From NCBI RefSeq assembly GCF_002968295.1, contig NZ_CP134399.1, positions 4,836,001-4,900,000 of the forward strand: a stretch of DNA of 64,000 bases, given 5' to 3'. Positions 49,527 through 64,000 of this stretch are shown here, piece after piece. Source of the DNA: Mycobacterium sp. ITM-2016-00317 (GTDB taxonomy: Bacteria; Actinomycetota; Actinomycetes; Mycobacteriales; Mycobacteriaceae). Numbering within the stretch: the stretch's first letter is position 1; each line of letters starts with the position of its first letter. Under the pieces are notes generated by a model. The model did not search any database, was not told where the DNA came from, and saw only the letters and a program-made list of their open reading frames with translations. A program made the position numbers and the translations under genes.

Positions 49527-50201
49527 TTAGGCGAAGCTCCCCTCCAGGGGTTCGAAGGTGACGCGCTGACGAAACAGGCGCCAGCGCTCCACGCGTCTGA
49601 ATTGTCGTGTCCATCCGGCTCTTTCAGCCACCTTGAACGTGCCGAGATTCTTCTCGCCCGCGACGCCGATTGCAGATCGCATGCCGAGTTTTCGAGCCTC
49701 GTCCAATATCTTGGTGCCGGCATCCATGAACACCCCCAGCCCTCGATGACGCTCCGACGTGAAAATGCCCTCGACCAACGCTTCACCCGGCTTGAGCACC
49801 GGAGCCAGTGGGCCCCACAGCGCTTGCATGCGCGGGTTGTCTTCGGCCGTGAACAGATACGCGATAAAACACACAGCTCCGTCGGGATCGACGGCGACCC
49901 AAGGCGCAGGAAGGTCGGAGTTCAACAGCCAACGCTGGTCCGCGCGATGTCGGGCAACCTCTGGGGGCAGGCCCGGGACGTCGGCGACCAGCGAAAGGTC
50001 ATCGTCGGGTTGAAGCTTTCGCACGACCAGGGGAATCTTCGCCGACGGCGCAGGAAAAGGGACACTCAGGTCATCGCGAATTCCGATCGACACCGTAGTC
50101 GAGTGGAAACGCTTGCGCGCGGTCCGCCATAGCCACCGGCGTCCCCGCCCGGTGCGCAGGAGCTCGATGAGGAGTCCGATGTTGTCCCGGAGTCGCTTCA
50201 T
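49527..50201 (-). CDS. GNAT-family N-acetyltransferase
   Basis: About 224 residues. A basic N-terminal segment (MKRLRDNIGLLIELLRTGRGRRWLWRTARKRF) precedes a GNAT core: PWVAVDPDGAVCFIAYLFTAEDN, ALVEGIFTSERHRGLGVFMDAGTKILDEARKLG with an acetyl-CoA-loop-like RHRGLG, and GVAGEKNLGTFKVAERAGW. Substrate unknown; the context suggests a sugar or small amine. Start ATG 50201 is preferred. It lies just outside the left end of the polysaccharide cluster, pointing the same way. Confidence 0.78.
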   Translation of the reverse strand: MKRLRDNIGLLIELLRTGRGRRWLWRTARKRFHSTTVSIGIRDDLSVPFPAPSAKIPLVVRKLQPDDDLSLVADVPGLPPEVARHRADQRWLLNSDLPAPWVAVDPDGAVCFIAYLFTAEDNPRMQALWGPLAPVLKPGEALVEGIFTSERHRGLGVFMDAGTKILDEARKLGMRSAIGVAGEKNLGTFKVAERAGWTRQFRRVERWRLFRQRVTFEPLEGSFA

Positions 50202-50507
50202 GCGGTTTCGCCACCGCGTCCGGGGCCTGCTTGAACATCGCCGGCTCGACAACCGAAGTTCGCCCAAACCATCGGAATCGGATCACTCGCCACGTCTTTC
50301 CCCCTCAACGACCGTGTGCCCAGATGTCAACCACGCCCCCCGTTGCGAGACGCTATCACGCGCCATGATGTGGTGTTTTCGTCTCAGCGAACTTCGTTCG
50401 GTGAAACGACGACCGATATGCAACGGCCCATCCTCAACGGTTGATCTGACCACCGGTGACGCACTCAGCCTCCGTTGCTGTGCTCTCCGCTGCGGTACCG
50501 TATCGAC
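50202..50507. other. Divergent promoter region
   Basis: 306 bp between divergent starts. On the plus strand TACCGT (50496-50501) ends 6 nt before ATG 50508, giving a leaderless promoter for the following gene. No other clear structure seen. Confidence 0.5.
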
Positions 50508-51452
50508 ATGCCAGAGGTCCGCCCCGTGGAGGTCCTGCCGATTGCCGAAGCCGACATACCTGAGGTGGCTGAATTCCTGCACAGCGAGATCGGGCCGGAA
50601 GTGTCAGCGGCCGACTGGCGTCGCGCCATGACCGCGACATGGGATTTCGTCCAACCCAACTACGGTTACCTCCTGCGCGATAACGGGCGCCTCGTCGGCG
50701 CGCATCTGGCGTTGTATTCAAAACGAACGATCGATGGCCGAGAGCACCGCATCTGTAACCTCGGGACCTGGTGCGTCGCAGAAGAACACCGCGCTGCCGG
50801 ATTGCGATTGCTGCGGAAACTGCTTCGCCAGAAGGGATACACCTTCACCGACCTGACGCCGAACCGCAAGATCGTGGCACTGAACGCCCGCCTCGGGTTC
50901 GCAAAACTCGACACGACGCGATCGCTGGCCCCCAACATTCCGTGGCCGTTGTGGTCGAGTGGGGTACGAGTTGTCCGTACCCCGAAGGGGATCGAGGACT
51001 TGCTCCACGGGCAAGACCGGACGATATATCTCGACCACTCCCGGGCTGCCGCTGCTCACCATGTGGTGCTCACCAAGGGTGAGCGCAGCTGTTACGTGAT
51101 GTTCCGGCTGGACTATGGCCGGATCAAGCGTCGACCGACGTTCGCGTCGATCCTCTATGTCGGCGATCCCGACGTGTTTCGGGACTGTGCGCCGCACTTC
51201 TACCGTTACCTTCTGCTGCGGCACGGGATACCCGCTACCTTGGGCGAGATCAGGGTGGTGGGGCACCGACTGCCGAGGTCGGTTCCGGTGGCAGGTCCGG
51301 CGAAGATGTACCTGTCCGATGACCTTGAGGCGGCCCAGATCGACGATCTCTACAGCGAGCTGACCTGTTTCGAGTTCCAGGGCCGCTTTCCCCATCACGA
51401 CGCACCGAAACCCGGCCTGTCGCACGTCTCGGAGAACGCGCTCGGCAGTTAG
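50508..51452 (+). CDS. GNAT-like acyltransferase, paralogue A
   Basis: 314 residues. The N-terminal half is GNAT-like: PIAEADIPEVAEFLHSEIG, NYGYLLRDNGRLVGAHLALYSKR, and CVAEEHRAAGLRLLRKLLRQKGYTFTDLTPN, then LNARLGFAKLD. The C-terminal half (about 165-300) has RGDRSYVMFR-like LTKGERSCYVMFRLDY and FLSDDL-like MYLSDDLEAAQIDDLYSEL. It is clearly homologous along its length to the gene at 57188-58078. ATG 50508 has a TACCGT -10 six nt upstream. It is convergent with the acyl carrier protein gene, overlapping it by 4 nt. Likely acylates or aminoacylates a sugar or carrier-bound group (inference). Confidence 0.78.
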   Translation: MPEVRPVEVLPIAEADIPEVAEFLHSEIGPEVSAADWRRAMTATWDFVQPNYGYLLRDNGRLVGAHLALYSKRTIDGREHRICNLGTWCVAEEHRAAGLRLLRKLLRQKGYTFTDLTPNRKIVALNARLGFAKLDTTRSLAPNIPWPLWSSGVRVVRTPKGIEDLLHGQDRTIYLDHSRAAAAHHVVLTKGERSCYVMFRLDYGRIKRRPTFASILYVGDPDVFRDCAPHFYRYLLLRHGIPATLGEIRVVGHRLPRSVPVAGPAKMYLSDDLEAAQIDDLYSELTCFEFQGRFPHHDAPKPGLSHVSENALGS

Positions 51453-51709
51453 TTCGTACTCTGCTCGACGAATTCGGCGAGAGAGCCGATCGTCTCGAAG
51501 ACGTCTCCAGTGAAGTCCTCGTCGTCGATCTCGAAGTCGAACTCTTTCTCCAGATTGACGGAGAGGGCGACAACGGCCATCGAATCGAGTTCCGGCATGC
51601 TGCCGAACAGTTCAGTGGACGCATCAAGGGTGTCGGCGCGATCCTGGATCGCGAGGGTCTTCACGAGTACCACCTTCACGCGTTCCAGCGTGTCCGTGCT
51701 GTAGGTCAT
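51449..51709 (-). CDS. Acyl carrier protein
   Basis: 86 residues, acidic, three or four helices. The phosphopantetheine site is Ser43 in GSMPELDSMAVVALSVNLEKEF (DSM in place of the common DSL). It should carry an acyl or aminoacyl group as a thioester. It is the last gene of the minus-strand cluster, 80 nt after the ATP-grasp gene and downstream of an AMP-forming ligase and a PLP decarboxylase. This context suggests it holds an amino acid during decarboxylation or transfer, rather than serving fatty-acid synthesis. Confidence 0.9.
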   Translation of the reverse strand: MTYSTDTLERVKVVLVKTLAIQDRADTLDASTELFGSMPELDSMAVVALSVNLEKEFDFEIDDEDFTGDVFETIGSLAEFVEQSTN

Positions 51710-51789
51710 CGAACTGCTTCCTCCCTAATGCGTTACAAAGCCTATAACCAGTGTGCGACCCGCGGTGCGGCCCCGGGGCGCGCGGTCGC

Positions 51790-52743
51790 TCAGTGGACAT
51801 CTCGGTTCGGTGCTTTGCAGACGAATTCGTCATTGAAACTGGCGCTCAAAATTTTCACCGCCTGCTCGCTCTCGGCCTTACCGAGGTGATTGGGCGGGCC
51901 ACACGGAGTGTTGTTCACATCGACGATGTAGATCTGCCCGTCGTCGACGTCCCTGAGGACGTCGAGCTCACCGAAATCCAGCCCGAGTTTCTTCGCGAAT
52001 TGCCGTATCAGGACCAATTCGTGATCCGAGAACGCCGAATCGGGGGATCCGACCTTGGCGCGGGCGTTCCGGTTGCTGAACCGATATCTCGCGTCGCGGT
52101 ACTTCCAATAGACAAGCGGTATCGAGCTGCCGACGATCGGAACCCTGATGTCGACAACCTCATCTCCGGTCGTGTTGTTTATCAGTCTCTGGAACACGAC
52201 ATCGTTTCTCGTAGTGATCGTCGGACATTCGATGAGAGTCCCGTCATGCATCGCGTTGTCGTCGGACTTCATGACACATGCCCCCTCGTATGTGCGGGGA
52301 TCGACGAAAGTGCCGTAGCCAAAGACGTCTCGAAAGACCTTCTCCACGTGGGTCTTGCTGATGTCGTTGCAGTGTTGATTCACCACGAAGTGGTCGTCGG
52401 AGAGTTCGGCGAGGAGTGGGTTGTGCCGACGTTTGGTCACATCCTCGAAGGACACCACCACATCCGGGCGAATCGTGGCCGAGGACGTGATCGTAAGGCC
52501 CAGTGAGTTGCAGATCTTGTAGAGGATCTGAGAGTAATCGGGGCGGTCCGGATGGAACAGAACGGTGGCGGCACGATGATTCTGGTCGAACCTCTTCCGA
52601 AGGTATTTCGTGCGGTATTTGATTCTCACTGTCGTTCCGATGATCCTGTCGTGATAGATCTTTCCCGCGTACTTGTAGGCAGGGTGCTCCTGGAGTTCTT
52701 TCACGGTGAACCCCCTGTCAGAAATGAAATCTCTCAGTCTCAT
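51790..52743 (-). CDS. ATP-grasp-fold ligase
   Basis: 317 residues. The C-terminal half shows the ATP-grasp metal-binding core: FGELDVLRDVDDGQIYIVDVNNTPCGPPNHL (Glu/Asp/Asn pattern), preceded by TTRNDVVFQRLINN and DIRVPIVG strands. The N-terminal part (AATVLFHPDRPDYSQILYKICNSLGL) resembles a pre-ATP-grasp domain. It should join a carboxylate to an amine or thiol with ATP. By position beside an acyl carrier protein and a PLP decarboxylase it recalls BtrJ of butirosin synthesis, which loads glutamate onto the carrier BtrI. It starts 4 nt after the decarboxylase gene. Confidence 0.78.
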   Translation of the reverse strand: MRLRDFISDRGFTVKELQEHPAYKYAGKIYHDRIIGTTVRIKYRTKYLRKRFDQNHRAATVLFHPDRPDYSQILYKICNSLGLTITSSATIRPDVVVSFEDVTKRRHNPLLAELSDDHFVVNQHCNDISKTHVEKVFRDVFGYGTFVDPRTYEGACVMKSDDNAMHDGTLIECPTITTRNDVVFQRLINNTTGDEVVDIRVPIVGSSIPLVYWKYRDARYRFSNRNARAKVGSPDSAFSDHELVLIRQFAKKLGLDFGELDVLRDVDDGQIYIVDVNNTPCGPPNHLGKAESEQAVKILSASFNDEFVCKAPNRDVH

Positions 52744-52747
52744 CGCG

Positions 52748-53974
52748 CTACACCAGTACTTCGGCGGGTGCGGGATGGCCCAGGAATGCAGTGGGGCTTG
52801 CGGTCAGACCGTAGGCGCCCGCCTGGAACAGCACGATCGAGTCGCCGATCTCGGCGTCCGGCAGCCGGACGCCGTCGCCCAGCAGATCCAGCGGGGTGCA
52901 CAGGCAACCGACCACGGTCACCTCCGAGTCCGGCGCCTCGGTGAGGCGGTTACCGACCGCGATCGGGTAGTTCCGCCGGATCACCTGCCCGAAGTTTCCG
53001 GATGCGGCCAGCTGATGGTGCATACCGCCGTCGACGACGAGGTATGTACGGCCACGAGATATCTTGCGGTCGACGATCCGGGTGACGTAGACACCGCACT
53101 CCCCGACGATGTAGCGGCCGAGCTCGATCACCACCTTCGTATCCGGCAGCTGCGGCTGGATACGATCCTGTACGAGCTCGGTCAGATTGTTCCCGATCGC
53201 GCCGAGGTCGAGCGGAGAGTCCTTGTCGAAGTAGGGGATACCGAAACCGCCGCCGAGATTCACATACCGGACCGGGGCGGGCGACTTGTCGGCCAGTCCG
53301 AGAACAAGCTCCACCGTCTTCTGCTGTGCCTCACAGAGAATCTCGGCATTGAGGTTCTGCGAACCTGCGAACACATGGAACCCGAGGAACTCCAGATCGG
53401 CGGTGTCGACCAGGCTGAGCAGTTCGGGCACCTGTTCGGCGTCGACACCGAACTGCTGTGGCCCCCCGCCCATTCGCATCCCGGAGCCCTTCACCTGGAA
53501 GTCGGGATTCACCCGGACCGCGACGCGCGGTCGCACCCCCAACATCTCTCCGGCCTCGATGACACGTCGGGCTTCCGTCGAGGATTCCATCTCGATGGTC
53601 ACACCCGCCGCGACGGCCTGTGCGATCTCCGCGACGGTCTTGCCCGGTCCGGCGAAGCTGATCCGGTCCGCGGACAGCGGAGTGTCCAGGGCGGTTCGCA
53701 TCTCGAGCGTCGAGGCCACATCCAGGGCATCGACCAGGCCGGCGAGGTGTTGCACGACCGCCGGCATTGGGTTTGCCTTGACCGCGTAGCTCAGATGTAT
53801 CGCCGACGGCAGCGCGGCGCGCAATGCCGCGACACGATCACTCAGCAAGCGCCTGTCGTAGGCGAAATAGGGCGTCGACCCGACGCGGGCGGTAAGTCGG
53901 TCGAGTGGCATTCCACCGACCGCGAGTTGCCCTTCGGCGGTGCCGAAGGCAGCGATCATCGGGCGCAGGTTCAT
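52748..53974 (-). CDS. Fold-type III PLP-dependent decarboxylase
   Basis: 408 residues of the alanine-racemase-like/diaminopimelate-decarboxylase family. PLP lysine is Lys66 in HLSYAVKANPMPAVV. A glycine loop occurs in YVNLGGGFGIPYF, a phosphate-binding region in ELGRYIVGECGVYV, and the dimer-interface Cys in GCLCTPLDLLGDGV. It should decarboxylate a D- or L-amino acid or a carrier-bound one. The overall sequence resembles the decarboxylase family associated with exosortase-A polysaccharide loci, and by context BtrK. The ligase gene upstream overlaps its start by 4 nt. Confidence 0.88.
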   Translation of the reverse strand: MNLRPMIAAFGTAEGQLAVGGMPLDRLTARVGSTPYFAYDRRLLSDRVAALRAALPSAIHLSYAVKANPMPAVVQHLAGLVDALDVASTLEMRTALDTPLSADRISFAGPGKTVAEIAQAVAAGVTIEMESSTEARRVIEAGEMLGVRPRVAVRVNPDFQVKGSGMRMGGGPQQFGVDAEQVPELLSLVDTADLEFLGFHVFAGSQNLNAEILCEAQQKTVELVLGLADKSPAPVRYVNLGGGFGIPYFDKDSPLDLGAIGNNLTELVQDRIQPQLPDTKVVIELGRYIVGECGVYVTRIVDRKISRGRTYLVVDGGMHHQLAASGNFGQVIRRNYPIAVGNRLTEAPDSEVTVVGCLCTPLDLLGDGVRLPDAEIGDSIVLFQAGAYGLTASPTAFLGHPAPAEVLV

Positions 53975-55542
53975 GTGGCAAGCTCCTCGCGCAGTGCTGT
54001 CCGGTCGAATTTCCCGTTGGGTGAACGGGGGATCTCCGCACGAATCACGACGGAGCCGGGCACCATGTAGAGCGGCAGCCCGGAGCGCATCGCATCGAGC
54101 AGGGCATCGATGGCAAAGTCCTCGGCGGTCGGTGCCACCACCAGCAGCACCCGTTCCCCTAGCGCGGCGTCCTCGACACCGAGCGCCACCGCGTCGCGGA
54201 CCATGCCGGTGGCATAAGCGGCTTCTTCTATCTCGGTCGGGCTGACGCGGTACCCGGACGTCTTGATCATGTCGTCGCGGCGGCCGACGAAGTACAGGTA
54301 TCCGTCGGCGTCGGCGACCACCGCGTCGCCCGAAAAGACCGCGAGCTCCGGTGTGCGCCAGGGCTCGTCGCGCCCCGGAACCGGACGAAACCGTTCCGCG
54401 GTTCGTGCCGGGTCGTTCCAGTAGCCCAGCGCCACATGTGGACCTCGATGGACGAGTTCGCCCTCTTCGCCCGGATCACATGTCGACCCATCGGGCCGGA
54501 CCACGAGGATCTCGGCACCCGGGATGGCCTTGCCGATTGAGCCGGGCCGTTGATCGATCTGGGCGGGATCGAGGTAGGTAGATCGGAATGCCTCGGTGAG
54601 CCCGTACATGAGATACGGCTTCGCCGTGGGGAACACCTCACGTAGTCGGTCCAGGACCGGCTTGGGCATCCGGCCGCCGGTGTTCGCGAAGTACCGTAGC
54701 GAGGCCCGCGCGTTATCGGGCCAGTTCTGCTCTGCGATCTGGATCCACAGTGGTGGCACGCAGGTGAGGCCGGTCACCCGGTGCCGAGCGCAGAGCCGGG
54801 GAATGTCGCCGGGCAGAAGGTAGTTCGTCAGGATGACGTGGGCGCCGACCGAGAAAGATGTCGTCAGCTGGCTGAATCCCGCGTCGAAACTCAGCGGCAG
54901 CGCGGCCAGTAGGATGTCGTCCGCCGAGTTCTCCAGATACGTCGACACGCTCTCCGCGCCGGCGATCAGATTGCGGTGGCTGAGCACTACGCCTTTGGGC
55001 TTGCCCGTACTCCCGGAGGTGTACAGGATGGCCGCGATGTCGAGGTCGATGGCCGCGACCGGGTCAGGGCTGCCACCGTGTGCAGCGACCAGCTGATCCC
55101 AGCTCAGGGTCGGCAGTCGCCCGCCGGGGCCAGGCCCCCCGGCTCGGGCACCCACGAGCACGATGTTCTCGAGTGCCGGACAAATCGCCAGTTCGTCGGC
55201 CAACAGCGTCAGCCGATCGGGAGTGGTGACGAGGACGCTGACGTCGCAATCGCGCAGGATGTGGCCGACCTGCGGGGACCTCAGCAACGGGTTGATCGGC
55301 ACAAACACGCCGCCCGCCGACGATGCACCGAAGATGGCCGTCACCGTCTCGATCCTCTTGTCGAGGTAGACCGCGACTCGCTGTCCGCGCCCGACGCCGA
55401 GCTCGGTGAACCCAGCCGCCACGTCCTGCACCTGCGACCACAGCTCACCGTAGGTGAGCGTTGCCTTCTTGAACGTCAGCGCGGCGAGCTCGGGACAGGA
55501 CAGCGCGCGATCCTGAACGAGGTGATGGAGGTTTGTCCGCAC
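53971..55542 (-). CDS. AMP-forming acyl-CoA/aminoacyl ligase (exosortase-A-associated type)
   Basis: 523 residues. P-loop ILYTSGSTGKPKGVVLSH (about 172-190), LPLSFDAGFSQLTTSF, VTGLTCVPPLWIQIAEQ, YGLTEAFRSTYLDP, and the C-terminal PNGKFDRTALREEL with the catalytic Lys. The string LPGDIPRLCARHRVTGLTCVPP is close to what I recall for the AMP-ligase family found in exosortase-A loci. It probably activates a carboxylate for transfer to the carrier protein at 51449. Start GTG/ATG at 55542, 3 nt after the asparagine-synthase-fold gene. Confidence 0.87.
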   Translation of the reverse strand: MRTNLHHLVQDRALSCPELAALTFKKATLTYGELWSQVQDVAAGFTELGVGRGQRVAVYLDKRIETVTAIFGASSAGGVFVPINPLLRSPQVGHILRDCDVSVLVTTPDRLTLLADELAICPALENIVLVGARAGGPGPGGRLPTLSWDQLVAAHGGSPDPVAAIDLDIAAILYTSGSTGKPKGVVLSHRNLIAGAESVSTYLENSADDILLAALPLSFDAGFSQLTTSFSVGAHVILTNYLLPGDIPRLCARHRVTGLTCVPPLWIQIAEQNWPDNARASLRYFANTGGRMPKPVLDRLREVFPTAKPYLMYGLTEAFRSTYLDPAQIDQRPGSIGKAIPGAEILVVRPDGSTCDPGEEGELVHRGPHVALGYWNDPARTAERFRPVPGRDEPWRTPELAVFSGDAVVADADGYLYFVGRRDDMIKTSGYRVSPTEIEEAAYATGMVRDAVALGVEDAALGERVLLVVAPTAEDFAIDALLDAMRSGLPLYMVPGSVVIRAEIPRSPNGKFDRTALREELAT

Positions 55543-55545
55543 AGT

Positions 55546-57108
55546 TCACCCCGCTGCCGCAGGAGGCGCCGACAGCGTCTCCCGCCACGTCTCGACCGCG
55601 CCTTGGTAGCGCGGATTGATGCACTCGATCGCCCAGAGTGTCGGTAGCGGGCCGAGGTGCGTGTGGCTGTGGATCTCCAGCGGTCTGGTCGCCAGTGCCG
55701 GCGCGAGGCGCAACAGGTTCAGTTTGCGCAACACGCGGTAGGTGAAGGATCGCGACGATTCGGCTGCCGCGTCGAGGAGGTAGCTCAGGCGGGTACGCAG
55801 CGGCAGCCGCTGCGCCCGGGCGTAATCGCGAACGGCGTCCCGCGTCCGTGCCGTCCACGCGGCGTCCCCCGGCACGTGCAGGAGCGCGGTCGTCGCACGC
55901 TTCTTGTGCCCGAAGTCGTCGCGTGGCACACCGGCGTCCTCGGCGATGCGACGGGGAACGGGGCGGTCGTAGTCGGTTCCGGTCGACCAGGCCTTCATCG
56001 TGTCGCTCCGGGCAATCTCAAGGAGCTTCGGATGCCGGCGCGCGCCGATGAACGGAGCCGGCACATGAACGAAATCGGTTCGCAGCCGGAACTCGTTCAT
56101 CGAAGCGCCGCTCATATCCCCCCGGCGCAGCAACTCGTCGGGATAGGTGTGCAGGTCCCAGACCCGGCCTCCGTAATGGCCACTGAAGAAGACGGTCCGG
56201 CCTACCACGTTCTCCAATCCCGCCATGTTCAGATCTTCACCACTCATACCGGTCGCGAGGAACTCGGCTTCGGGGAATCCACCGGCGTCGCGGTACGCCA
56301 TTCGGTCGAACTCCTCGAGTTCATAGCCCAGAGCCGCCGCTATCGGCTTTCCGGAGTCGTCCTCCTGATGGCCACCCCGGGTGCGGGCGTGGGTGAAGGT
56401 GAACGCCTTGTCGCAACCGACCCGGCGGGCCAGGGCTGCCACCGCCGGGGAGTCGTAACCGGAGGAGATGGACGCCAGCGGCGAGTACGTCACCGAACGG
56501 CACGGCGCCACCGCGTTGTCCACCGTTCGCTCCAGGACGTCGGCGAGCAGTGCGACGTACTCGTCGTACGTCTCGTATGGCCGCCCTGAGGATTTGTCCA
56601 GGAAGGAGATCCGGCCGTCGTGGTGAAAGCGCACGTTGTGCACATAGACGAGGTGTGCTTCAGCCCCGCCCGGTCCGGGATCCCCGGTGAAGCGGACGGG
56701 GATGATCGTGTCGAACTCGCGGATGCCGTCATAGATGATCCCGGCGAAGTCGGTCGCGTAACCGGGATGGTGCGGATCGAGTTCTGCGCGGGCGGCCGCC
56801 AGGAGGAACACCAAGGAATTCGAGACCAGGATCTCGGCCCCGCGCCTGATGTACTGGATCCGCTCCAGGGTGTGACTCGGGGGCACGACGATCAGATCAT
56901 CTCCGGCGATCCGGCCGCCCGAGCCGAAAACGTCGACCGCATCGGCGAACCCGAAGGAGCGCGCGTCGCCAGCCCACGCTCCTTCGAAGAAACCGTCGTC
57001 ACGGACCTCGACGCTGGTGCCACACAGGAGTTCGGCATCGCCGCGACCCAGCCTCACACACCACGCCAACGGTGGGAGACCGGGTTCACAGCTGACGCTC
57101 ATTCGCAT
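55546..57108 (-). CDS. Asparagine-synthase-fold ATP-dependent amide-forming enzyme lacking a glutaminase Cys
   Basis: 520 residues. The central PP-loop reads SSGYDSPAV (215-223), the second of the usual SGGxDS glycines being kept in variant form, with FTFTHARTRGGHQEDDS following. The N-terminal part has the beta-sandwich look of class II amidotransferases but begins MRMSVSCEPG, with no Cys2 nucleophile, so it probably cannot use glutamine. Such enzymes (for example beta-lactam or carbapenam synthetases) make amide bonds with another amine. It could couple the carrier-bound amine to a uronic acid (inference). It precedes the ligase gene by 3 nt. Confidence 0.8.
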   Translation of the reverse strand: MRMSVSCEPGLPPLAWCVRLGRGDAELLCGTSVEVRDDGFFEGAWAGDARSFGFADAVDVFGSGGRIAGDDLIVVPPSHTLERIQYIRRGAEILVSNSLVFLLAAARAELDPHHPGYATDFAGIIYDGIREFDTIIPVRFTGDPGPGGAEAHLVYVHNVRFHHDGRISFLDKSSGRPYETYDEYVALLADVLERTVDNAVAPCRSVTYSPLASISSGYDSPAVAALARRVGCDKAFTFTHARTRGGHQEDDSGKPIAAALGYELEEFDRMAYRDAGGFPEAEFLATGMSGEDLNMAGLENVVGRTVFFSGHYGGRVWDLHTYPDELLRRGDMSGASMNEFRLRTDFVHVPAPFIGARRHPKLLEIARSDTMKAWSTGTDYDRPVPRRIAEDAGVPRDDFGHKKRATTALLHVPGDAAWTARTRDAVRDYARAQRLPLRTRLSYLLDAAAESSRSFTYRVLRKLNLLRLAPALATRPLEIHSHTHLGPLPTLWAIECINPRYQGAVETWRETLSAPPAAAG

Positions 57109-57187
57109 AGCGGATCCTTACGTGACGGGTGGAGCGGACCTGAGGTGCCCTGCAGCCAGGTGTCGTGCGCACGCTCAACTGATCGAG

Positions 57188-58078
57188 TCATTCCAAACAC
57201 GTCAATTCGCTGTAGAGATAGTCCACCTGTGCTGCGTCGACGTCGTCGCTGAAGTACATCCTGGGACGGCCCGGAACCGATACCGACCTGGGTGGGCGTC
57301 GCCCGGCGACCCTGACCTCCACCAATGTCGCCAGAATTCGTTGCCTCACCAACAGGTACCGGTGGAAATGCGGCGCCCACCGCGTGAACAACTCGGTGTC
57401 GCCGACGTGAAGTATTGAGGCGAGAACCCAGAGATGCCTGTACCGCTCACGCCGGTACATCACATAGCAGTTCTGATCGCCGTCGGTGAGCACGACGTGG
57501 CGCGCGGCCGTCGTCGCGTGGTCGCGGTAAATCTGTTGGTCCCGGCCCGAGAGCAGCCCATCGATTTCGTTCGTGGTGTCGATGACCCGGACCCCTCGCG
57601 ACCACACCGGCCAGGGCAAATTGGGCACCAGCATCGTCGCGGTGTCGAGCGCGGCGAACCCGAGCCGCGTGTTCAATGTCACGACATTCGGGTTCGGGGT
57701 GAGATCCGTGAAGGTGTAACCCTTTTGGCGGAGCAGCGACCGGAGCAGGCGCATTCCGGACGCGCGGTGCGGTTCTTCAACACACCACACACCGAGGTTG
57801 CAGATACGTCGCACGCGGTCATCGATTACACGTTCCGAGTACAGCGCGAGATGCACGCCGACGACACGCCCGTTTTCGCGCAGCAGATAGCCGTGGTTGG
57901 GCTGCTCAACGGCCCAGGGCGGGTTCATCACCCGTAGCCAATCGGTGACCGGTCTGGTTCTCGTGACGCCGAGGTTCAAGAACTCGGCATGCAAGAACTC
58001 GGCAACCGTCCGCACGTCGGCATCGGTGATCGGCTTGACCTCGAGGACTGGAACGTTTGACACGAACAGCTTGGACAC
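57188..58078 (-). CDS. GNAT-like acyltransferase, paralogue B
   Basis: 296 residues, paralogue of the gene at 50508-51452: ITDADVRTVAEFLHAEF, NHGYLLRENGRVVGVHLALYSER, ICNLGVWCVEEPHRASGMRLLRSLLRQKGYTFTDLTPN, LNTRLGFAALD and [19 protein letters not shown] match its counterpart throughout. I place the start at GTG 58078 (MSKLFVSNVPVLEVKP), 8 nt after GGAG; longer reading into the SGNH gene is in the wrong frame for that gene. It is embedded in the minus-strand cluster. Confidence 0.78.
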   Translation of the reverse strand: MSKLFVSNVPVLEVKPITDADVRTVAEFLHAEFLNLGVTRTRPVTDWLRVMNPPWAVEQPNHGYLLRENGRVVGVHLALYSERVIDDRVRRICNLGVWCVEEPHRASGMRLLRSLLRQKGYTFTDLTPNPNVVTLNTRLGFAALDTATMLVPNLPWPVWSRGVRVIDTTNEIDGLLSGRDQQIYRDHATTAARHVVLTDGDQNCYVMYRRERYRHLWVLASILHVGDTELFTRWAPHFHRYLLVRQRILATLVEVRVAGRRPPRSVSVPGRPRMYFSDDVDAAQVDYLYSELTCLE

Positions 58079-58089
58079 CGTGGATGCTC

Positions 58090-59157
58090 CTACTCCATAG
58101 CGGGTGCAAGTGCCTCGGCGACGGCACCGCTGAGGTAAACGGCGTACCTCTTCGTGAAGTGGAACGGGTTGTAGTAGACGATGGTGTCGGCGACGACCGG
58201 CTGGCATTTCTCGGCGCACACCCATGGCACGGTGTCCACGTAGTGAGCGCCCGCCGCGGCCGCCGCCGCCTTCTCGGCGTCGAAGAATTCCGACACCGCA
58301 TTCGCGCGGTCGGTGCTGCATGCCTGGACGTCCTGGGTGTGGGCGGCGAGGCATTGCGCATCGTTGTTGGCCCAGGTGGGGATGGCCCCGAGCATCGCAA
58401 GCCGGGTGCCCGGCTGCGTCAACTTCTGGAATGTCGACACCCACGCGTCCTGCCATTGGGCGGGTGTGGGTGTTTCGCCAGTGGCGAGTTTGTGGCCGAC
58501 GTTGCTCGCGGTGACCACGAGCTGCGGATGCAGTTTGTTGATCTCGTCGATCGCGGTCGCGTGGAACTCGTCGCACGCGGCATCCGGCACCCCCGTTCTG
58601 TTGTCCCGGAATTGCAGATCCGCCACGGGGCAGCCGCCCTGCGCGAACATCCGCACCTTCCAGCCGGTGATCGCGCTGACTCTCTCCAGGGCGCTCACCC
58701 ACATCTGGGCGCGCGAATCCCCGTAAATCACCATGAGTTTCGTTCCGTTCGGATCGCCGTACGCGCAGTCGCCGAGACTCGTGTAGGGCGCCGAGGACTT
58801 GATGTCGAGCTTGTCGAAGCACTTCTCCGGCCCGGCTTCCTCAGCGTTGCTGTTGGAGCGGGCCACCTGACTCATCGCGACCAACTGTTCGGAGGCGCCG
58901 GGCGTGAGCGCCTGGGTACTTTGGGCGGCGGTCACGGCCGCCAGCACTTCCGCCGTGGTGGCGTACTTCTGGTTGGTCAGATCAGTGTTCGCCGATTCGG
59001 CAGCGTACTGGTCCGACTGGTATGCAGGCATGTCGGATCCCCCGCCGGACGACGAACACGCCGCCAAGGCGACGACGACACCCGCGAGCAGCGGGATGAT
59101 TCGCCCGAGCCGCCGCCTGCCCGACGATGAACGACGGATTGAATCAGTGCTCGTCAC
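58090..59157 (-). CDS. SGNH-hydrolase-fold lipoprotein (acyltransferase-3 partner)
   Basis: 355 residues. A basic N-terminus and hydrophobic helix end in a lipobox ALAAC (Cys34). The SGNH catalytic region has VIYGDSRAQMW (Ser148), VVTASNVGH (Asn), and the C-terminal YYNPFHFTKRYAVYLSGAV, where the expected DxxH is NPFH. Two Cys pairs (CFDK...DCAYG) suggest an exported disulphide-bonded domain. In many bacteria this domain is fused to the acyltransferase-3 membrane domain; here it is a separate gene directly downstream of one, so the two probably O-acetylate the polysaccharide together. Confidence 0.82.
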   Translation of the reverse strand: MTSTDSIRRSSSGRRRLGRIIPLLAGVVVALAACSSSGGGSDMPAYQSDQYAAESANTDLTNQKYATTAEVLAAVTAAQSTQALTPGASEQLVAMSQVARSNSNAEEAGPEKCFDKLDIKSSAPYTSLGDCAYGDPNGTKLMVIYGDSRAQMWVSALERVSAITGWKVRMFAQGGCPVADLQFRDNRTGVPDAACDEFHATAIDEINKLHPQLVVTASNVGHKLATGETPTPAQWQDAWVSTFQKLTQPGTRLAMLGAIPTWANNDAQCLAAHTQDVQACSTDRANAVSEFFDAEKAAAAAAGAHYVDTVPWVCAEKCQPVVADTIVYYNPFHFTKRYAVYLSGAVAEALAPAME

Positions 59158-59217
59158 GATCTTTGCTCTCCCGTTCTAGTTCCAAACTCGACGACAAGGT
59201 TGACATCCCGCTGGGGA

Positions 59218-60474
59218 TCAGTTGAACAGATCCCACGACCCGTAGTGGGACGCGATAAGCCACTGCGCGGCAAGAATTGTGATGGCCACGAGGGATGCGC
59301 CCATCGCCAAACTCAACCCGGTACGTGCGGACAGGAATCTGGATCTGCGGATCGGGTCCTCCACCAGACGAAACGTGAGCGCGGACGCCAGCACGGCCAG
59401 CGCAACCAGACCGGTCGTCTGCAGTAGGTCGAGATCCTTGTTCAGATACCGGGCGGGAATGATGAGAAGTGGCCAGTGCCAGAGGTACATCGAGTAGGAC
59501 CGGGCGCCGATCCACTGCATCGGTCGTACCGAAAGCACCCGACCGATCCAAGTGGGCTTGGCGATGCAGCCAGCCGCGACCAATGCCGCGCCACCGGCGA
59601 CGGGCAGGATCACAGCCGAGCCCGGATAGCGGGTGTCGGGAGTGAGCAGGAATGCGGCCACGGTGATTGCGCACAGACCCCCAACCGACAAAACCGTTGG
59701 CAGCCAGGCATATTTCAACCGAGCGATACTAGGCGCCAGCACGGCGACCAGCGCGCCCAGTGCCAGCTCCCATGCTCGTGTCAGAGGCGAGAAGTAGGCC
59801 CAGGTCTCATTGATCGCCGTCTGGAGGATCGACCAGGACAAGGAGGCGACGATGATCACCGACAGGGCCCCGGCGAGTGCCCGACGATGCCGGGCGCCGC
59901 GGGCAATGAAGACCAGGATCAGGAACAGGGCCGGCCACACGAAGTAGAACTGCTCCTCGACACCGAGCGACCACATGTGCTGCAGCGGCGACGGGGGCAA
60001 CTGGGCGCCGAAGTAGTCCGTCCCGAGGACAGCGAAATGGACGTTGGCCGCGAATATCGCGGTCCATTTGGCGTCCTCGGCCACGTTGTTCCCATTGATG
60101 AACCCCAGCCAGTGATACGTCGCCAACACCGTCACCAGAACCACCACGGTCGACGCCGGCAGTATTCGCCGCACGCGTCGGGCATAGAAGCGGGATATGG
60201 AGACGCGACCTTCTCTTTCGCTCTCTCTCACAAGCAGACTCGTGATCAGGAAGCCGGAGATCACGAAGAAGATGTCGACGCCGACGAAGCCGCCGGTGAA
60301 TGGCTGGTGGTAGGCGTGGAACAGGATCACCAGGACCACGGCGATCGCGCGCATACCCTCGATGTCCGGCCGGAACTGTGCCCGAGCCCTGTCTACCGTC
60401 GCACGGTGTCTTCCCGGGGCCGCGACTGTGCTCACGGAGCCTGCAAGGGGCTCCGCGGTCACGGTGCCCACCAC
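59218..60474 (-). CDS. Acyltransferase-3 family membrane O-acyltransferase
   Basis: 418 residues with about ten to eleven membrane helices. The opening is typical: FRPDIEGMRAIAVVLVILFHAYHQPFTGGFVGVDIFFVISGFLI, with RFYARRVRRILPAS and SLGVEEQFYFVWP. These are conserved features of the Acyltransferase_3 family (OafA/NolL type), which transfers acyl groups to extracytoplasmic sugars. The separate SGNH lipoprotein gene follows. Its 3' end is in the cluster between the GH113-like gene and the SGNH gene, and its start overlaps the GH113-like gene by 16 nt. Confidence 0.87.
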   Translation of the reverse strand: MVGTVTAEPLAGSVSTVAAPGRHRATVDRARAQFRPDIEGMRAIAVVLVILFHAYHQPFTGGFVGVDIFFVISGFLITSLLVRESEREGRVSISRFYARRVRRILPASTVVVLVTVLATYHWLGFINGNNVAEDAKWTAIFAANVHFAVLGTDYFGAQLPPSPLQHMWSLGVEEQFYFVWPALFLILVFIARGARHRRALAGALSVIIVASLSWSILQTAINETWAYFSPLTRAWELALGALVAVLAPSIARLKYAWLPTVLSVGGLCAITVAAFLLTPDTRYPGSAVILPVAGGAALVAAGCIAKPTWIGRVLSVRPMQWIGARSYSMYLWHWPLLIIPARYLNKDLDLLQTTGLVALAVLASALTFRLVEDPIRRSRFLSARTGLSLAMGASLVAITILAAQWLIASHYGSWDLFN

Positions 60475-61493
60475 CGGCGTATCACGGCTTCGGCTTCCTT
60501 ACCGCGAGGCGAGAAATCCAGTGGTTCGGCTTCGGTGTACGGCGGGGTTGCCCACACCCACCAGAAGATCCCGGCCCAGAACGGCTGGTCGCTGGCGGCC
60601 GCCAGCAGCGCTTCATATGCCGCCGCCTGCTCAGCCTGGGCCGGTACCGTGCTGATCCGCCAACTGGAGGGATCGGTCGCCGTCCCCCGCTGGCTGGTGT
60701 AGCCGGCCTCGGTGAAAAGGATCTTGCGGTCGTATCTCGCCGACAGCGCGGCGATTCGGGGAATGAAGGATTCTGCGGCCTGCTGCAGCGCCTGTACGTC
60801 CGTCGTGGGCGTAGCGCTCAACGGCGCGTAGGCGTCCAGGCCGATCAGATCGAGGGCATCCCAGAACGGGACCCGCTCCCAGTCGGTGCTGGACGCGTAA
60901 GTCAGTTGGCCGTCGTAGCGTTCGCGCACGGCCTGGATCACTTGCAACCACGCCGGGCGGTCGTCGGTCATCCGGGCCAGCTCTGTGGCGATGGCGAACT
61001 GCTCGACCCCGAGGCGCTGCGCTATCGAGGCGTAGTGACTGATGAATGCGGTATATGAGGCGAACCACGCCGGACGGTCCTGCGCGGCGATCTTGTTGCT
61101 GCCGTGCGGTGACAGATTGAGATGAGGCTTCAGCAGCACCTTCAACCCCAGATCATGGGCCAGCGTGATCGCCCGCTCCTGGCCGGAGTCGCTGACCGTC
61201 CTGTCCGTTCGGTAGATGTCGCTGGAAGTTGTCGTCTGCTGATACCAGGTGGGCGTGAACTGCACCCAGTTCGCGCCCAGCGCACGGATTTCCTTCAGGG
61301 ACTGCTCAACCGCGGGTCCGTCGTAACCGTTGACCTCCCAACTCGGTAACGCGAATCCTCGCTGTTGTCCTGCGGGCACCTCGGCACCCGAAGGCTGGCA
61401 ACCCAGCGACATAGCCAGCACCGACATGATTGTCAGGAAGATCGCGACGACCGTCGCCGGGCGTGCTGTCCGGCGCTCAGAGATGCATGACAC
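60459..61493 (-). CDS. GH113-like glycoside hydrolase, exported
   Basis: About 344 residues from GTG 61493. A signal/anchor segment (VVAIFLTIMSVLAMSLGC) precedes a TIM-barrel: NGYDGPAVEQSLKEIRALGANWVQFTPTWYQQT, LLKPHLNLSPHG, EQFAIATELARM with a likely acid/base Glu, LIGLDAYAPL, ILFTEAGYTSQRG with a likely nucleophile Glu, and FWAGIFWWVWATPPY. This fits glycoside hydrolase family 113 or a close relative (beta-mannanase type). A Cys (SLGC) could be lipidated, though the lipobox is imperfect. It may trim or release the polysaccharide. It overlaps the nucleotide-sugar dehydrogenase stop by 17 nt. Confidence 0.78.
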   Translation of the reverse strand: MSCISERRTARPATVVAIFLTIMSVLAMSLGCQPSGAEVPAGQQRGFALPSWEVNGYDGPAVEQSLKEIRALGANWVQFTPTWYQQTTTSSDIYRTDRTVSDSGQERAITLAHDLGLKVLLKPHLNLSPHGSNKIAAQDRPAWFASYTAFISHYASIAQRLGVEQFAIATELARMTDDRPAWLQVIQAVRERYDGQLTYASSTDWERVPFWDALDLIGLDAYAPLSATPTTDVQALQQAAESFIPRIAALSARYDRKILFTEAGYTSQRGTATDPSSWRISTVPAQAEQAAAYEALLAAASDQPFWAGIFWWVWATPPYTEAEPLDFSPRGKEAEAVIRRWWAP

Positions 61494-62733
61494 GGGGACC
61501 CCTGACTCGGTGGCGGCAATCGAGGACGAGTCTCGAGTGCTCGACGACCGCGTCGTACTCGAACGCATCGTGGTCGGTGAGCAGCACGACGGCGTCGGCT
61601 GCCGCGAGTTCCTCAGGGGTGACTTCGACGCGCGTCAGCAGCCCGTCGACAGAGGCGGTCTCGACCACATGGGGGTCGGCGCCGCAAACCTCGGCGCCCA
61701 TCCCGGCGAGCAGCTGGGCAACCCGCACCGCCGGCGACTCCCGGGCATCTCCGGTGTTCTTCTTGTAGGACAGGCCCAGCAGCAGAATCCGCGACCCGTT
61801 GACCGAACATTTCTGGTCGTTCAGGGCTAGCGTGACCCGGCGTACCACATGGTCGGGCATGTGCTCGTTGATGTCGTTGGCCAACTCGACGAATCGGAAA
61901 CTGTGACCGAGTGTCCGCTCCACGCACCACGACAGATAGGACGGATCGATCGGAAGGCAGTGCCCGCCGACTCCCGGTCCGGGCGTGAATCGCATGAATC
62001 CGAACGGCTTCGTCGCGGCGGCGTCGATCGCTTCCCAGACGTCGATGCCGAGTTCGTGCGCGAATATCGCGACCTCGTTGACGAGCGCGATGTTGACGTG
62101 CCGAAAGGTGTTCTCCAGCAACTTGGCCAATTCGGCCTCGCGTGGCGAGGCCACCGGGATCGTGGTGTCCACGATCGTGTCGTAGAACGCCTGAACGGAT
62201 GCCAGTGAGGCCTCGTCTACACCCGAGATGATCTTCGGTGTGTTGACCAGGGTCCAGGTGACGTTGCCCGGGTCGATGCGCTCGGGACTGAACCCGAGGT
62301 GGAAGTCACTACCGGCGAGCAGGCCGGAGCCATCCTCGAGGATGGGCGCGACCAACTCCTGGGTGGTCCCCGGGTAGGTGGTCGACTCCACGATGACGGT
62401 CGCACCGGGCCGGAGGTAGCGCGCGAGTGTCTGCGCGGATTCCTCGATGTAGCGCAGATCGGGCACGCCCTCGCGAAGCGGCGTCGGTACGGCGATGATC
62501 GCGACGTCGAAATCGACGCAGGCGCCTGCGTCTGACGACGGGTGGAAGGCGCCCGACTCCAGGATCGCGCTGAGGACGTCGTCCGCGATGTCCTCTATGT
62601 ACGAGTCCGCGGCCAGGAGCCTCTTCATGCGATTCTCGTCGATGTCGTACGCCACCACGCGATGGCCGACCTGGGCGGCGCGAACCGCGAGCGGCAGGCC
62701 GACATAGCCCTGCCCGACAACAACGACTCTCAT
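61477..62733 (-). CDS. UDP-sugar 6-dehydrogenase (UDP-ManNAc/GlcNAc dehydrogenase type)
   Basis: 418 residues. N-terminal Rossmann motif VVVVGQGYVGLPLAVRAA, VPTPLREGVPDLRYIEESAQ, VESTTYPGTT, FSPERIDPGN, the central helix LLENTFRHVNIALVNEVA, and the catalytic Cys259 in GVGGHCLPIDPSYLSW; the C-terminal domain has GLSYKKNTGDARESPA. It oxidises the C6 alcohol of a UDP-sugar to a uronic acid. Sequence details resemble WecC/WbpA/TviB more than UDP-glucose dehydrogenase, so UDP-N-acetylmannosamine or UDP-GlcNAc is the likelier substrate. Start ATG 62733 overlaps the deacetylase stop by one base (TGATG). Confidence 0.87.
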   Translation of the reverse strand: MRVVVVGQGYVGLPLAVRAAQVGHRVVAYDIDENRMKRLLAADSYIEDIADDVLSAILESGAFHPSSDAGACVDFDVAIIAVPTPLREGVPDLRYIEESAQTLARYLRPGATVIVESTTYPGTTQELVAPILEDGSGLLAGSDFHLGFSPERIDPGNVTWTLVNTPKIISGVDEASLASVQAFYDTIVDTTIPVASPREAELAKLLENTFRHVNIALVNEVAIFAHELGIDVWEAIDAAATKPFGFMRFTPGPGVGGHCLPIDPSYLSWCVERTLGHSFRFVELANDINEHMPDHVVRRVTLALNDQKCSVNGSRILLLGLSYKKNTGDARESPAVRVAQLLAGMGAEVCGADPHVVETASVDGLLTRVEVTPEELAAADAVVLLTDHDAFEYDAVVEHSRLVLDCRHRVRGPRVMHL

Positions 62734-63509
62734 CAGTGACCTCCCCGGTACCGTCGGACGCCATGGCGGTTACCGACCGTGAGCAGTGAGACGACCCGCT
62801 TCGCGTCGAGGCGCCACGTCGTGTCCCCCTCGTGCACCAGCGTTCTGGGTATGGCGTGGCGGCCGATCTCGGGGCCCGCCTTCACCGCGCATGCGTAGTC
62901 GTAGCCCGCGCCCCGAGCAGCATCCACGACGCGCGCATCCAGGTATCCGTACGGGTAGCAGAAGCCCTGCACTGGTCGAGAAATCAACTCCTGCAGCACC
63001 TCTCGGCTTTGTGACACTTCCGATGTGAGCATTGCTTCGTCCGCCTTCAGCAGTGAGATGTGCTTGAGCCCGTGCGACCCGATCTCCATTCCGGCCTCGG
63101 CAATCTGCTTCACCTCGTCCGCGGTCAACAGTGCCTTGTTCGGTCCGGGACGGCTCCACTCGTTCTCCCCGCCGAGCCGCCCTGCAAGAATGAAAACTGT
63201 TGCGGTGTAACCATATCGTTGCAGCACCGGCAACGCGTTGGGGATGAAGTCCTGGTAGCCGTCATCGAACGTCAACCCGACCAGCCCGCGCGCCCGGCCC
63301 TCGGCAGAGGCTCGGAGGAGTTCCTGCATCGAGACGCCGCGCAGTCTCCTTCTCCGCAACCAGCGCATCTGACTCTCGAATCGCTGCGGAGTCATCGTCA
63401 CTTCGTACGGATCCTCGTCGTAGGTTGCGATCGAGTGATACATCCACACCAGCGGGACAGTGTCCAGGTCGCGAGATGTGGACGCCCCTCCAGCGATCGA
63501 AGCGGTCAT
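62733..63509 (-). CDS. NodB-type polysaccharide deacetylase
   Basis: 258 residues, carbohydrate esterase 4 fold. Metal triad residues are visible: TFDDGYQD (Asp82/Asp83), GSHGLKHISL (His146, His150), and CYPYGYLD and TLVHEGDTTWRLD in later motifs. No signal peptide, so it may act in the cytoplasm or be associated with the polymerisation machinery. It should remove N-acetyl groups from a hexosamine. Start ATG 63509 overlaps the upstream glycosyltransferase stop (ATGA), with GGGAG 6 nt ahead. Confidence 0.87.
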   Translation of the reverse strand: MTASIAGGASTSRDLDTVPLVWMYHSIATYDEDPYEVTMTPQRFESQMRWLRRRRLRGVSMQELLRASAEGRARGLVGLTFDDGYQDFIPNALPVLQRYGYTATVFILAGRLGGENEWSRPGPNKALLTADEVKQIAEAGMEIGSHGLKHISLLKADEAMLTSEVSQSREVLQELISRPVQGFCYPYGYLDARVVDAARGAGYDYACAVKAGPEIGRHAIPRTLVHEGDTTWRLDAKRVVSLLTVGNRHGVRRYRGGH

Positions 63510-64000
63510 GTTCGACTCCCATCTCTGCCGCAAGGCTGACCATCTACCACACTGATAGGGAACGGAATTCGCGTGGGGAGGGCGGACGCCGCCTTGTGGT
63601 CCAGGGCTCGTAGGTAGACCTCGTCGAGCGCAGGTATCACCTGAGACAGCGTGAAACGAGCGGCTTTGGCAGGTCCGGCCGCGCCCAGTCGCAGCCGCAG
63701 CGGTTCGTCCTCCAGAATCCGCCGGATGGCCCCGGCCAGGGCCGCCGCGTCTCCCGGCGGCACGTGAAGCCCATCCACCTCGTCCGTGACGATGTCCAGC
63801 AGACCACCCAGGGCTGAGACCACGCACGGCGTTCCCGCCGCCAGGCATTCCACAGCCACTCGACCAAATCCCTCGGGAACCACGCTCGGTACGACCCCGA
63901 CAACGGCGTGCCGCCATGCAGCGATCACATCCGGCATTGCGACGTTGGTCGCGACCATCACCCCCGGTCGGTTGTCGATCTGGAAATCTTCACGGGGCAG
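63506..64000 (-). CDS. GT4-family glycosyltransferase, C-terminal part (runs off right edge)
   Basis: Only the last 164 or so codons are present. The GT4 nucleotide-sugar-binding core is clear: VVPSVVPEGFGRVAVECLAAGTPCVVSALGGLLDIVTDEVDGLHVPPGD, with the EX7E pair at the two Glu residues (PEGFGRVAVE). It transfers a sugar from a nucleotide donor to a growing glycan. The stop overlaps the deacetylase start. The cluster continues beyond the window on this side. Confidence 0.85.
   Translation of the reverse strand: MPREDFQIDNRPGVMVATNVAMPDVIAAWRHAVVGVVPSVVPEGFGRVAVECLAAGTPCVVSALGGLLDIVTDEVDGLHVPPGDAAALAGAIRRILEDEPLRLRLGAAGPAKAARFTLSQVIPALDEVYLRALDHKAASALPTRIPFPISVVDGQPCGRDGSRT

Follow-up and report, generated by a model that had tools for sequence, protein, structure and literature searches.

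We analysed a stretch of 64,000 nucleotides (nt; the window) from Mycobacterium sp. ITM-2016-00317, corresponding to positions 4836001-4900000 of contig NZ_CP134399.1, and in particular a block of glycan and acyl-carrier genes in it. The whole genome is a single contig of 6.06 Mb, and the decarboxylase of the block places the source closest to Mycolicibacterium vaccae among named organisms (96%, locus L025). The block consists of 12 minus-strand genes that run from 51449 past the window edge at 64000 with gaps of no more than 80 nt. Four of them are central here: an acyl carrier protein (ACP) of 86 amino acids with the attachment motif LDSM (51449..51709; PF00550, 29.5 bits against a cut-off of 20.8), a BtrK-like pyridoxal phosphate (PLP)-dependent decarboxylase (52748..53974), an AMP-forming ligase (53971..55542), and GNAT57 (57188..58078; GTG start with GGAG upstream), an acyltransferase with a predicted tandem GCN5-related N-acetyltransferase (GNAT) fold. 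The sequence-only reading had described the same close packing and named eleven of the 12 genes; the one it left unnamed is GNAT57, which proved more telling than any other. Probably, the product of the block is a cell-surface glycan, on which the ACP module and GNAT57 place a decarboxylated amino acid of the beta or gamma type.

Both the ligase (TIGR03098, 732.2 bits, cut-off 592.35; AMP-binding) and the decarboxylase (TIGR03099, 585.3 bits, cut-off 478.45) exceed the cut-offs of families associated with exosortase A, as had been supposed from their sequences, and it is these families, rather than ordinary fatty-acid or amino-acid enzymes, that give the best family matches. The ligase is predicted to be an amino-acid:ACP ligase. 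Its best full-length stand-alone match in the PDB is the entry 3wvn; the record gives a non-ribosomal peptide synthetase (NRPS), and we take it to be VinN. Against the amino-acid adenylation model the ligase reached 266 bits, under the cut-off of 317. In the substrate pocket, Asp220 is invariant in all 76 ungapped ligases and Arg320 in all 77 aligned ones (G066 and L039 being one genome); we equate these residues, on our own assumption, with GrsA positions 235 and 330. This pair is absent from all seven own-genome paralogues inspected, out of 86 other matches (of which some are fragments of a single gene). The ligase thus has what is expected of a VinN-type enzyme, namely an Asp where the amine of the substrate binds and, for the carboxylate, a basic residue. 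The combination of Asp220 and Arg320 fits an amino dicarboxylic acid as the substrate, most likely aspartate, 3-methylaspartate or glutamate.

Among solved structures, the best match of the decarboxylase is BtrK (253 bits, with the next matches at 148 bits or lower). The two proteins have in common a CTPxD motif and an FLGHPxPxE tail, and the C, T, P and D of this motif, together with the PLP lysine, are present in 87/87 aligned rows (again with G066 and L039 as one genome). A plain diaminopimelate decarboxylase was ruled out, since the score against the lysA model TIGR01048 (229.9 bits) is under the cut-off of 297.9 and CTP stands where the LysA region of the same genome has CES. That lysA region (around 4216401-4217450) is itself read as two overlapping frames, pointing to a frameshift or an assembly error. 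In the excerpts available of the respective papers, BtrK is described as a glutamyl-ACP decarboxylase with a carrier-bound substrate (PMC7857480), and VinO as decarboxylating an ACP-bound substrate (PMC11284099). The decarboxylase of the block is nearest to BtrK in sequence and has an ACP encoded nearby, as would be expected of a BtrK/VinO-type enzyme, and decarboxylation would therefore be predicted to take place on the carrier-bound substrate.

GNAT57 has no family match in Pfam or NCBIfam; in an alignment of 29 members, three weakly match one GNAT model and one matches another. Its AlphaFold model (predicted local distance difference test, pLDDT, 91.1; predicted template modelling score, pTM, 0.87) contains two GNAT folds in one chain, the hallmark of a tandem GNAT. 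Foldseek aligned nearly the full length of this model with N-myristoyltransferases and tandem GNATs at E-values near 1e-9, although TM-scores reached only 0.36-0.60. GNAT57 is predicted to be a carrier-dependent aminoacyltransferase, for which the aminoacyl-ACP would be the donor and a sugar amine the acceptor. A second copy of the gene, 61% identical to the first and scoring 436.9 bits against the family profile, lies on the plus strand (50475..51452), convergent with the ACP gene. A further GNAT-like gene at window positions 49527-50267, with weak Pfam matches only, has matches near the block in genomes G066, G145 and G229.

The recurrence of these genes was examined by scanning GTDB contigs with the decarboxylase, and the best 80 loci of a longer list were considered, with neighbours counted within the flanks of each locus, which are often short. 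Two sets were compared. Set 1 (n=40) holds the window, G229, two plasmid loci, L025-L059 and L065, and set 2 (n=44, proteobacterial) holds L060-L104 minus L065; G066 was left out because it duplicates L039, and L023 and L024 lie outside both sets. In set 1, GNAT57 was present in 30/40 loci, the ligase in 36/40 and the ACP in 36/40 (four of them weak, 22-28 bits), while an amidotransferase was found in only two of the 40. A contiguous same-strand cassette of GNAT, ligase, decarboxylase and ACP (an ATP-grasp gene being allowed before the ACP) was observed in 22/40 of these loci; the copies of the window and of M. vaccae fall outside this count because a PP-loop gene is inserted. GNAT57 was found in none of the 44 loci of set 2, where the ligase (40), ACP (18), amidotransferase (21) and a hydrolase (12) were recorded. 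In a decarboxylase tree of 86 rows, the XrtA-set rows stand apart from the rest (99/97), with L023, L024 and L054 labelled with the XrtA set, and 30 cassette rows group with the GNAT-less L046 (84/90, on a branch not starred). Rhizobiales rows fall among Actinobacteria, which suggests transfer between phyla. In plasmids, each of the 29 listed records that has a GNAT57 of 45-52% identity also belongs to the 31 with a decarboxylase of 60-80% identity. Megaplasmids of Sinorhizobium meliloti (e.g. RCAM1115 plasmid p_2, L021) carry the GNAT-ligase-decarboxylase-ACP cassette together with a GT2 glycosyltransferase and a deacetylase. The wider region of the S. meliloti cassette contains insertion sequence elements, and its GNAT is annotated as a hypothetical protein. 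The S. meliloti strains Rm41 and SM11 possess the cassette.

The decarboxylase family is rare in the organism's own group. TIGR03099 was over cut-off in 4/297 mycobacterial genomes and 2/396 genomes across the phylum (the source genome is counted in both). The module is not confined to mycobacteria and recurs in other Actinobacteria and in Rhizobiales. GNAT57 was found in 16/297 mycobacterial and 3/396 phylum genomes, including the source; some may be missed, as scoring in each genome was limited to the top 8 or 6 candidates of a first look. In G145, the decarboxylase sits on a 3.8-kb contig with no GNAT57 match. In G066 and G229, both of which have the complete block, the gene order from GT2 to ACP is kept; the PP-loop gene of G066 lies on the opposite side of the ACP gene, and no match to the acyltransferase-3 and SGNH genes was found in either genome. 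In addition, a single family of this phylum includes 22 genomes (L109-L130) whose TIGR03099 relatives score 407-424 bits, under the cut-off.

A third GNAT57 gene of the source genome (5177918-5178745) is located in another exopolysaccharide locus (L137, 5168000-5187999), which encodes a polyprenyl sugar transferase over cut-off, a Wzy_C protein, GT4 glycosyltransferases and, judging by sequence, an epimerase-like protein. Adjoining this GNAT57 are genes for GlmS (over cut-off), a stand-alone amino-acid adenylation domain (A-domain), a peptidyl carrier protein (PCP) with the motif GGDSLL, and a flavin amine oxidase, with a lysine-2,3-aminomutase-like protein nearby (155 bits; CxxxCxxC motif); the PCP gene overlaps both of its neighbours by four bases. 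Of 19 places with GNAT57 in mycobacteria, five are in decarboxylase cassettes. The 14 others (13 fetched sites plus the second exopolysaccharide locus of the source genome) have the aminomutase-like gene in 14 cases, the A-domain with PCP in 13 and the amine oxidase in 12. Glycan genes, sought only by likeness to the proteins of the own locus, were not seen at all 14 sites. Two unrelated supply modules thus accompany GNAT57, which points to one acyltransferase family with two ways to a carrier-bound, probably non-alpha, amino acid.

The window genome contains no exosortase over cut-off, as the sequence-only reading had found for the stretch itself: the best PF09721 match in the whole genome reached 13.6 bits against a cut-off of 25.7 and has a stop inside. 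Exosortases were also sought in 50 of the 80 genomes. None of the 36 tested from set 1, of which 26 have GNAT57 within flanks, had an exosortase over cut-off (four weak matches under it), versus 13/14 from set 2, L060 being the sole exception. The same 13 genomes of set 2 also contain FemAB (TIGR03019) over cut-off, and no FemAB over cut-off was found in the 36 genomes of set 1, M. vaccae L025 included (three weak matches). A linkage to exosortase was consequently rejected for this genome, none being over cut-off either here or in its 36 related genomes. Searches of one literature library yielded no paper that ties exosortase to the decarboxylase or ligase or that names TIGR03098, TIGR03099 or dCO2ase, and none on carrier-dependent aminoacylation of amino sugars; for aminomutase, mycobacteria and exopolysaccharide, only unrelated papers were returned, as judged from titles and the beginnings of abstracts. 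Two papers of that library mention exosortase, PEP-CTERM, polysaccharide and mycobacteria together. No mention of a ligase, decarboxylase, acyl carrier, asparagine, AMP-binding or FemAB was found in PMC1569441.

The other genes of the block (all on the minus strand) are mainly of glycan type. A GT4 glycosyltransferase crosses the window edge (63506..64687) and is followed by a NodB-type polysaccharide deacetylase (62733..about 63509; PF01522, 100 bits, cut-off 23). The latter scored only 29.2 bits against the NodB model TIGR04243 (cut-off 240) and 32.6 bits against the XrtA-type deacetylase TIGR03006 (cut-off 276.2). Next come a UDP-sugar 6-dehydrogenase for uronic acid formation (61477..62733; TIGR03026, 407 bits, cut-off 190) and a GH113-like glycoside hydrolase (60459..61568; PF22612, 190 bits), which has an N-terminal hydrophobic segment and is probably exported. 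The 92-nt overlap of these two genes is the sole long one in the block, so that a start codon downstream of the one called for the hydrolase is probably in use. Short overlaps couple the ligase with the decarboxylase, and likewise the deacetylase with the glycosyltransferase. An acyltransferase-3 membrane protein (59218..60474; PF01757, 124 bits) and an SGNH-domain protein with a lipoprotein-like N terminus and a hydrophobic N-terminal segment (58090..59157; PF19040, 97.9 bits) each match one half of the SucT model, under its cut-off; by sequence this pair resembles a split SucT-type enzyme, and the SGNH protein may act in exported O-acylation. By a simple scan, no hydrophobic segments are present in the ligase, decarboxylase, ACP, GNAT57 or deacetylase.

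Two more genes are interleaved with the module. The PP-loop asparagine-synthetase-like protein (55546..57108) has an SSGYDS motif and no Pfam or NCBIfam match, the XrtA amidotransferase family TIGR03108 included. The ATP-grasp-like ligase of 317 amino acids (51790..52743) matches NCBIfam MptN far under cut-off (E=0.0037) and nothing in Pfam or the PDB; its predicted structure, made from four sequences, had a pLDDT of 40 and was not interpreted. Both genes are common to the window, L025, L026 and L039/G066, with no match in G229, and both enzymes would be accessory. For the ACP, the best NCBIfam match is the cispentacin ACP AmcB (under cut-off) and the best PDB match is 2lki.

Past the window edge, the operon continues with a Wzx-like flippase (PF01943, 29.7 bits, cut-off 28.2; 12 hydrophobic segments), two multi-membrane proteins without a Pfam match over cut-off, a GT4 and a GT2 glycosyltransferase. 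The glycan genes anticipated on this far side were therefore found in part: the flippase, glycosyltransferases and membrane proteins are present, but neither Wzy nor Wzz nor an initiating sugar-phosphate transferase could be recognised within the block itself, and a long polymer is accordingly not claimed. Directly behind the GT2 gene, two giant repeat proteins of 3011 and 1286 amino acids as read (4908128-4921152) are encoded; they appear to be secreted and are possibly surface partners of the glycan. The G+C content over 44-64 kb is 0.61-0.67, compared with 0.65-0.75 in the preceding 2-kb steps. This is compatible with the accessory region proposed earlier, although G+C content is no proof of one.

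Taken together, the following route can be proposed. The ligase would adenylate a dicarboxylic amino acid and load it on the ACP through its side-chain carboxyl, and the PLP decarboxylase would strip the alpha-carboxyl on the carrier, giving an omega-aminoacyl-ACP. The deacetylase of the block, acting in the cytosol, or an amino-sugar pathway, would bare the amine of a lipid-linked sugar. The tandem GNAT would then transfer the aminoacyl group from the ACP to this amine in the cytosol, before the flippase exports the decorated product. In mycobacteria, the ATP-grasp-like and PP-loop enzymes may cap or amidate the aminoacyl group, and O-acylation outside the cell may be the task of the SGNH and acyltransferase-3 proteins; in XrtA loci, FemAB may fill the role of the GNAT. 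What the analysis shows directly is the identity of the genes, their packing as an operon, the recurring cassette, the lack of an exosortase over cut-off and the placement in families; the substrate, decarboxylation on the carrier, the donor and acceptor of the GNAT and the sequence of events are inferred.

Parts of this route are familiar from other systems. The excerpts of PMC11284099 describe for the vicenistatin pathway how VinN, VinL and VinO attach 3-methylaspartate to an ACP and decarboxylate it while it is bound, with a stand-alone adenylating enzyme, a stand-alone ACP and a PLP decarboxylase as in the block; there, however, the group primes a polyketide synthase (PKS), whereas the partners here are glycan genes and a tandem GNAT. 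The exopolysaccharide loci associated with XrtA/PEP-CTERM likewise combine the TIGR03099 decarboxylase, the AMP ligase and an ACP, to which the example L024 adds a deacetylase, FemAB and an amidotransferase. They differ in that the window genome has no exosortase over cut-off, no XrtA-type hydrolase was seen in the block, the tandem GNAT belongs to another family, and FemAB over cut-off is lacking in the 36 related genomes that were searched for it (the source genome lay outside that search). The butirosin proteins BtrI, BtrJ and BtrK offer another parallel, BtrK being by far the closest solved decarboxylase. The butirosin side-chain product goes to an aminoglycoside amine, and the loader BtrJ is an ATP-grasp ligase, in contrast to the predicted AMP ligase of the window block. 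In the NodB-NodA-NodF system of Nod factor synthesis, a deacetylase frees the amine and an acyltransferase uses a dedicated ACP; a fatty acyl group is transferred there, as opposed to the amino acyl group proposed here, and the deacetylase of the block is far under the NodB cut-off. DltA and DltC, an adenylating enzyme and a carrier, similarly deliver an amino acid, D-alanine, to a surface polymer, the teichoic acids, but the esters are formed outside the cell via a membrane acyltransferase, whereas a soluble GNAT with cytosolic N-acylation and a decarboxylation step is proposed for the present block.

Several observations weigh against the proposed decoration by GNAT57. The proposal is drawn from sequences and models, the pocket numbering of the ligase leans on assumed GrsA positions, and the assignments of the ATP-grasp and PP-loop enzymes rest on motifs. 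Rates of co-occurrence are skewed to close relatives, as the loci are the best 80 of a longer list; the two sets were split after the fact by relatedness; and the 50 genomes searched for exosortase may be incomplete. Association with the deacetylase is moderate (23/40 loci in set 1 versus 12/44 in set 2). Ten of the 40 loci in set 1 have the decarboxylase and no GNAT within flanks, some of which are short, and eight of them form a separate sister clade, seven actinobacterial (Streptomyces, Nonomuraea, Herbidospora and others) and one named Melainabacteria, mostly with the ligase. At the second exopolysaccharide locus, the aminomutase-like protein finds no match in Pfam and stays under its model's cut-off of 525. 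Distant relatives of GNAT57 (27-32% identity) on the Shinella plasmids L172 and L173 are in glycan loci without an annotated carrier nearby, and the small neighbour of another distant relative, in a halogenase cluster on Rhizobium sp. T136 plasmid pT136b (L174), is not a recognised carrier. The Shinella relatives are accompanied by a GINT1_N-domain protein and then glycan genes; the pT136b cluster encodes an adenylate-forming enzyme as well as a CmlS-like halogenase and resembles a natural-product pathway. At L139 (G376:C64), a GNAT57 relative adjoins hydr1_PEP and hydr2_PEP, each of which scores over cut-off, as well as an amidotransferase that resembles TIGR03108 but stays under its cut-off. 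This locus links the toolkits of the GNAT and of exosortase A, yet it also shows that the partners vary. Finally, the closest folds of GNAT57 found by Foldseek are acyl-CoA enzymes, of the Eis type and N-myristoyltransferase, and GNAT57 may thus use coenzyme A (CoA).

This last point is the starting point of the strongest alternative, in which the aminoacyl-ACP is made as proposed but the GNAT is an ordinary N-acetyltransferase of the sugar pathway that takes acetyl-CoA or another acyl-CoA; the PP-loop or ATP-grasp enzyme would then consume the aminoacyl group, for instance to form an amide on the uronic acid from the UDP-sugar dehydrogenase. This alternative would suit the presence of that dehydrogenase in the operon, and in 21/44 loci of set 2 an amidotransferase accompanies this ligase and decarboxylase. 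We consider it unlikely, though worth keeping in mind, because the PP-loop and ATP-grasp genes have no match in G229 or any non-mycobacterial locus examined, the GNAT is the more constant partner (30/40), and the paralogous GNAT is likewise beside a carrier-loading module. A different possibility is that the glycan genes are mere neighbours, and that ligase, ACP and decarboxylase are part of a secondary-metabolite pathway along the lines of vicenistatin or butirosin. The absence of any PKS or multidomain NRPS gene from the block, the GT2-to-ACP order kept in G066 and G229, and the close overlaps that tie ligase to decarboxylase and deacetylase to glycosyltransferase make this improbable, despite the likeness to BtrK and 3wvn and the GNAT-less sister clade of Streptomyces, Nonomuraea, Herbidospora and others.

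The two remaining explanations are more doubtful still. A role in general metabolism, with a fatty or aromatic acyl-CoA ligase and a decarboxylase yielding free polyamine or lysine, would agree with the AMP-ligase superfamily to which the ligase belongs and with the relationship of the decarboxylase to diaminopimelate decarboxylases. It is very improbable given the sub-threshold lysA score, the change from CES to CTP, the separate lysA region of the genome and a ligase pocket that differs from those of the seven paralogues inspected. Least credible of all is a role of ligase and decarboxylase in protein sorting of the exosortase type, with a linker or carrier as their product: the family names and the exosortases of 13/14 tested set 2 genomes speak for it, but neither the source genome nor the 36 related ones have an exosortase over cut-off (four weak matches), and the module is placed in a glycan operon. 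The most likely account is thus a carrier-based module for amino-acid decoration within a glycan locus, in which the chemistry is of a known kind and the novelty lies in an acyltransferase family with exchangeable suppliers.

A broader generalisation, to which we give about even chances, is that an undescribed tandem-GNAT family N-acylates amino sugars of surface glycans with carrier-bound non-alpha amino acids. The suppliers would be exchangeable within one genome, with ligase, decarboxylase and ACP on one side and A-domain, PCP, amine oxidase and aminomutase on the other. TIGR03098 and TIGR03099 would then be glycan-decoration enzymes everywhere, FemAB would replace the GNAT in exosortase loci, and the link to protein sorting would be indirect. 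These results offer a possible function, separate from protein sorting, for two families so far named only by association with exosortase A, and they predict that S. meliloti and some mycobacteria have a surface glycan that bears an amino acid. The acyltransferase family indicated here, so far undescribed and with interchangeable modules to supply its aminoacyl carrier, should be useful for annotation and for glycan chemistry.

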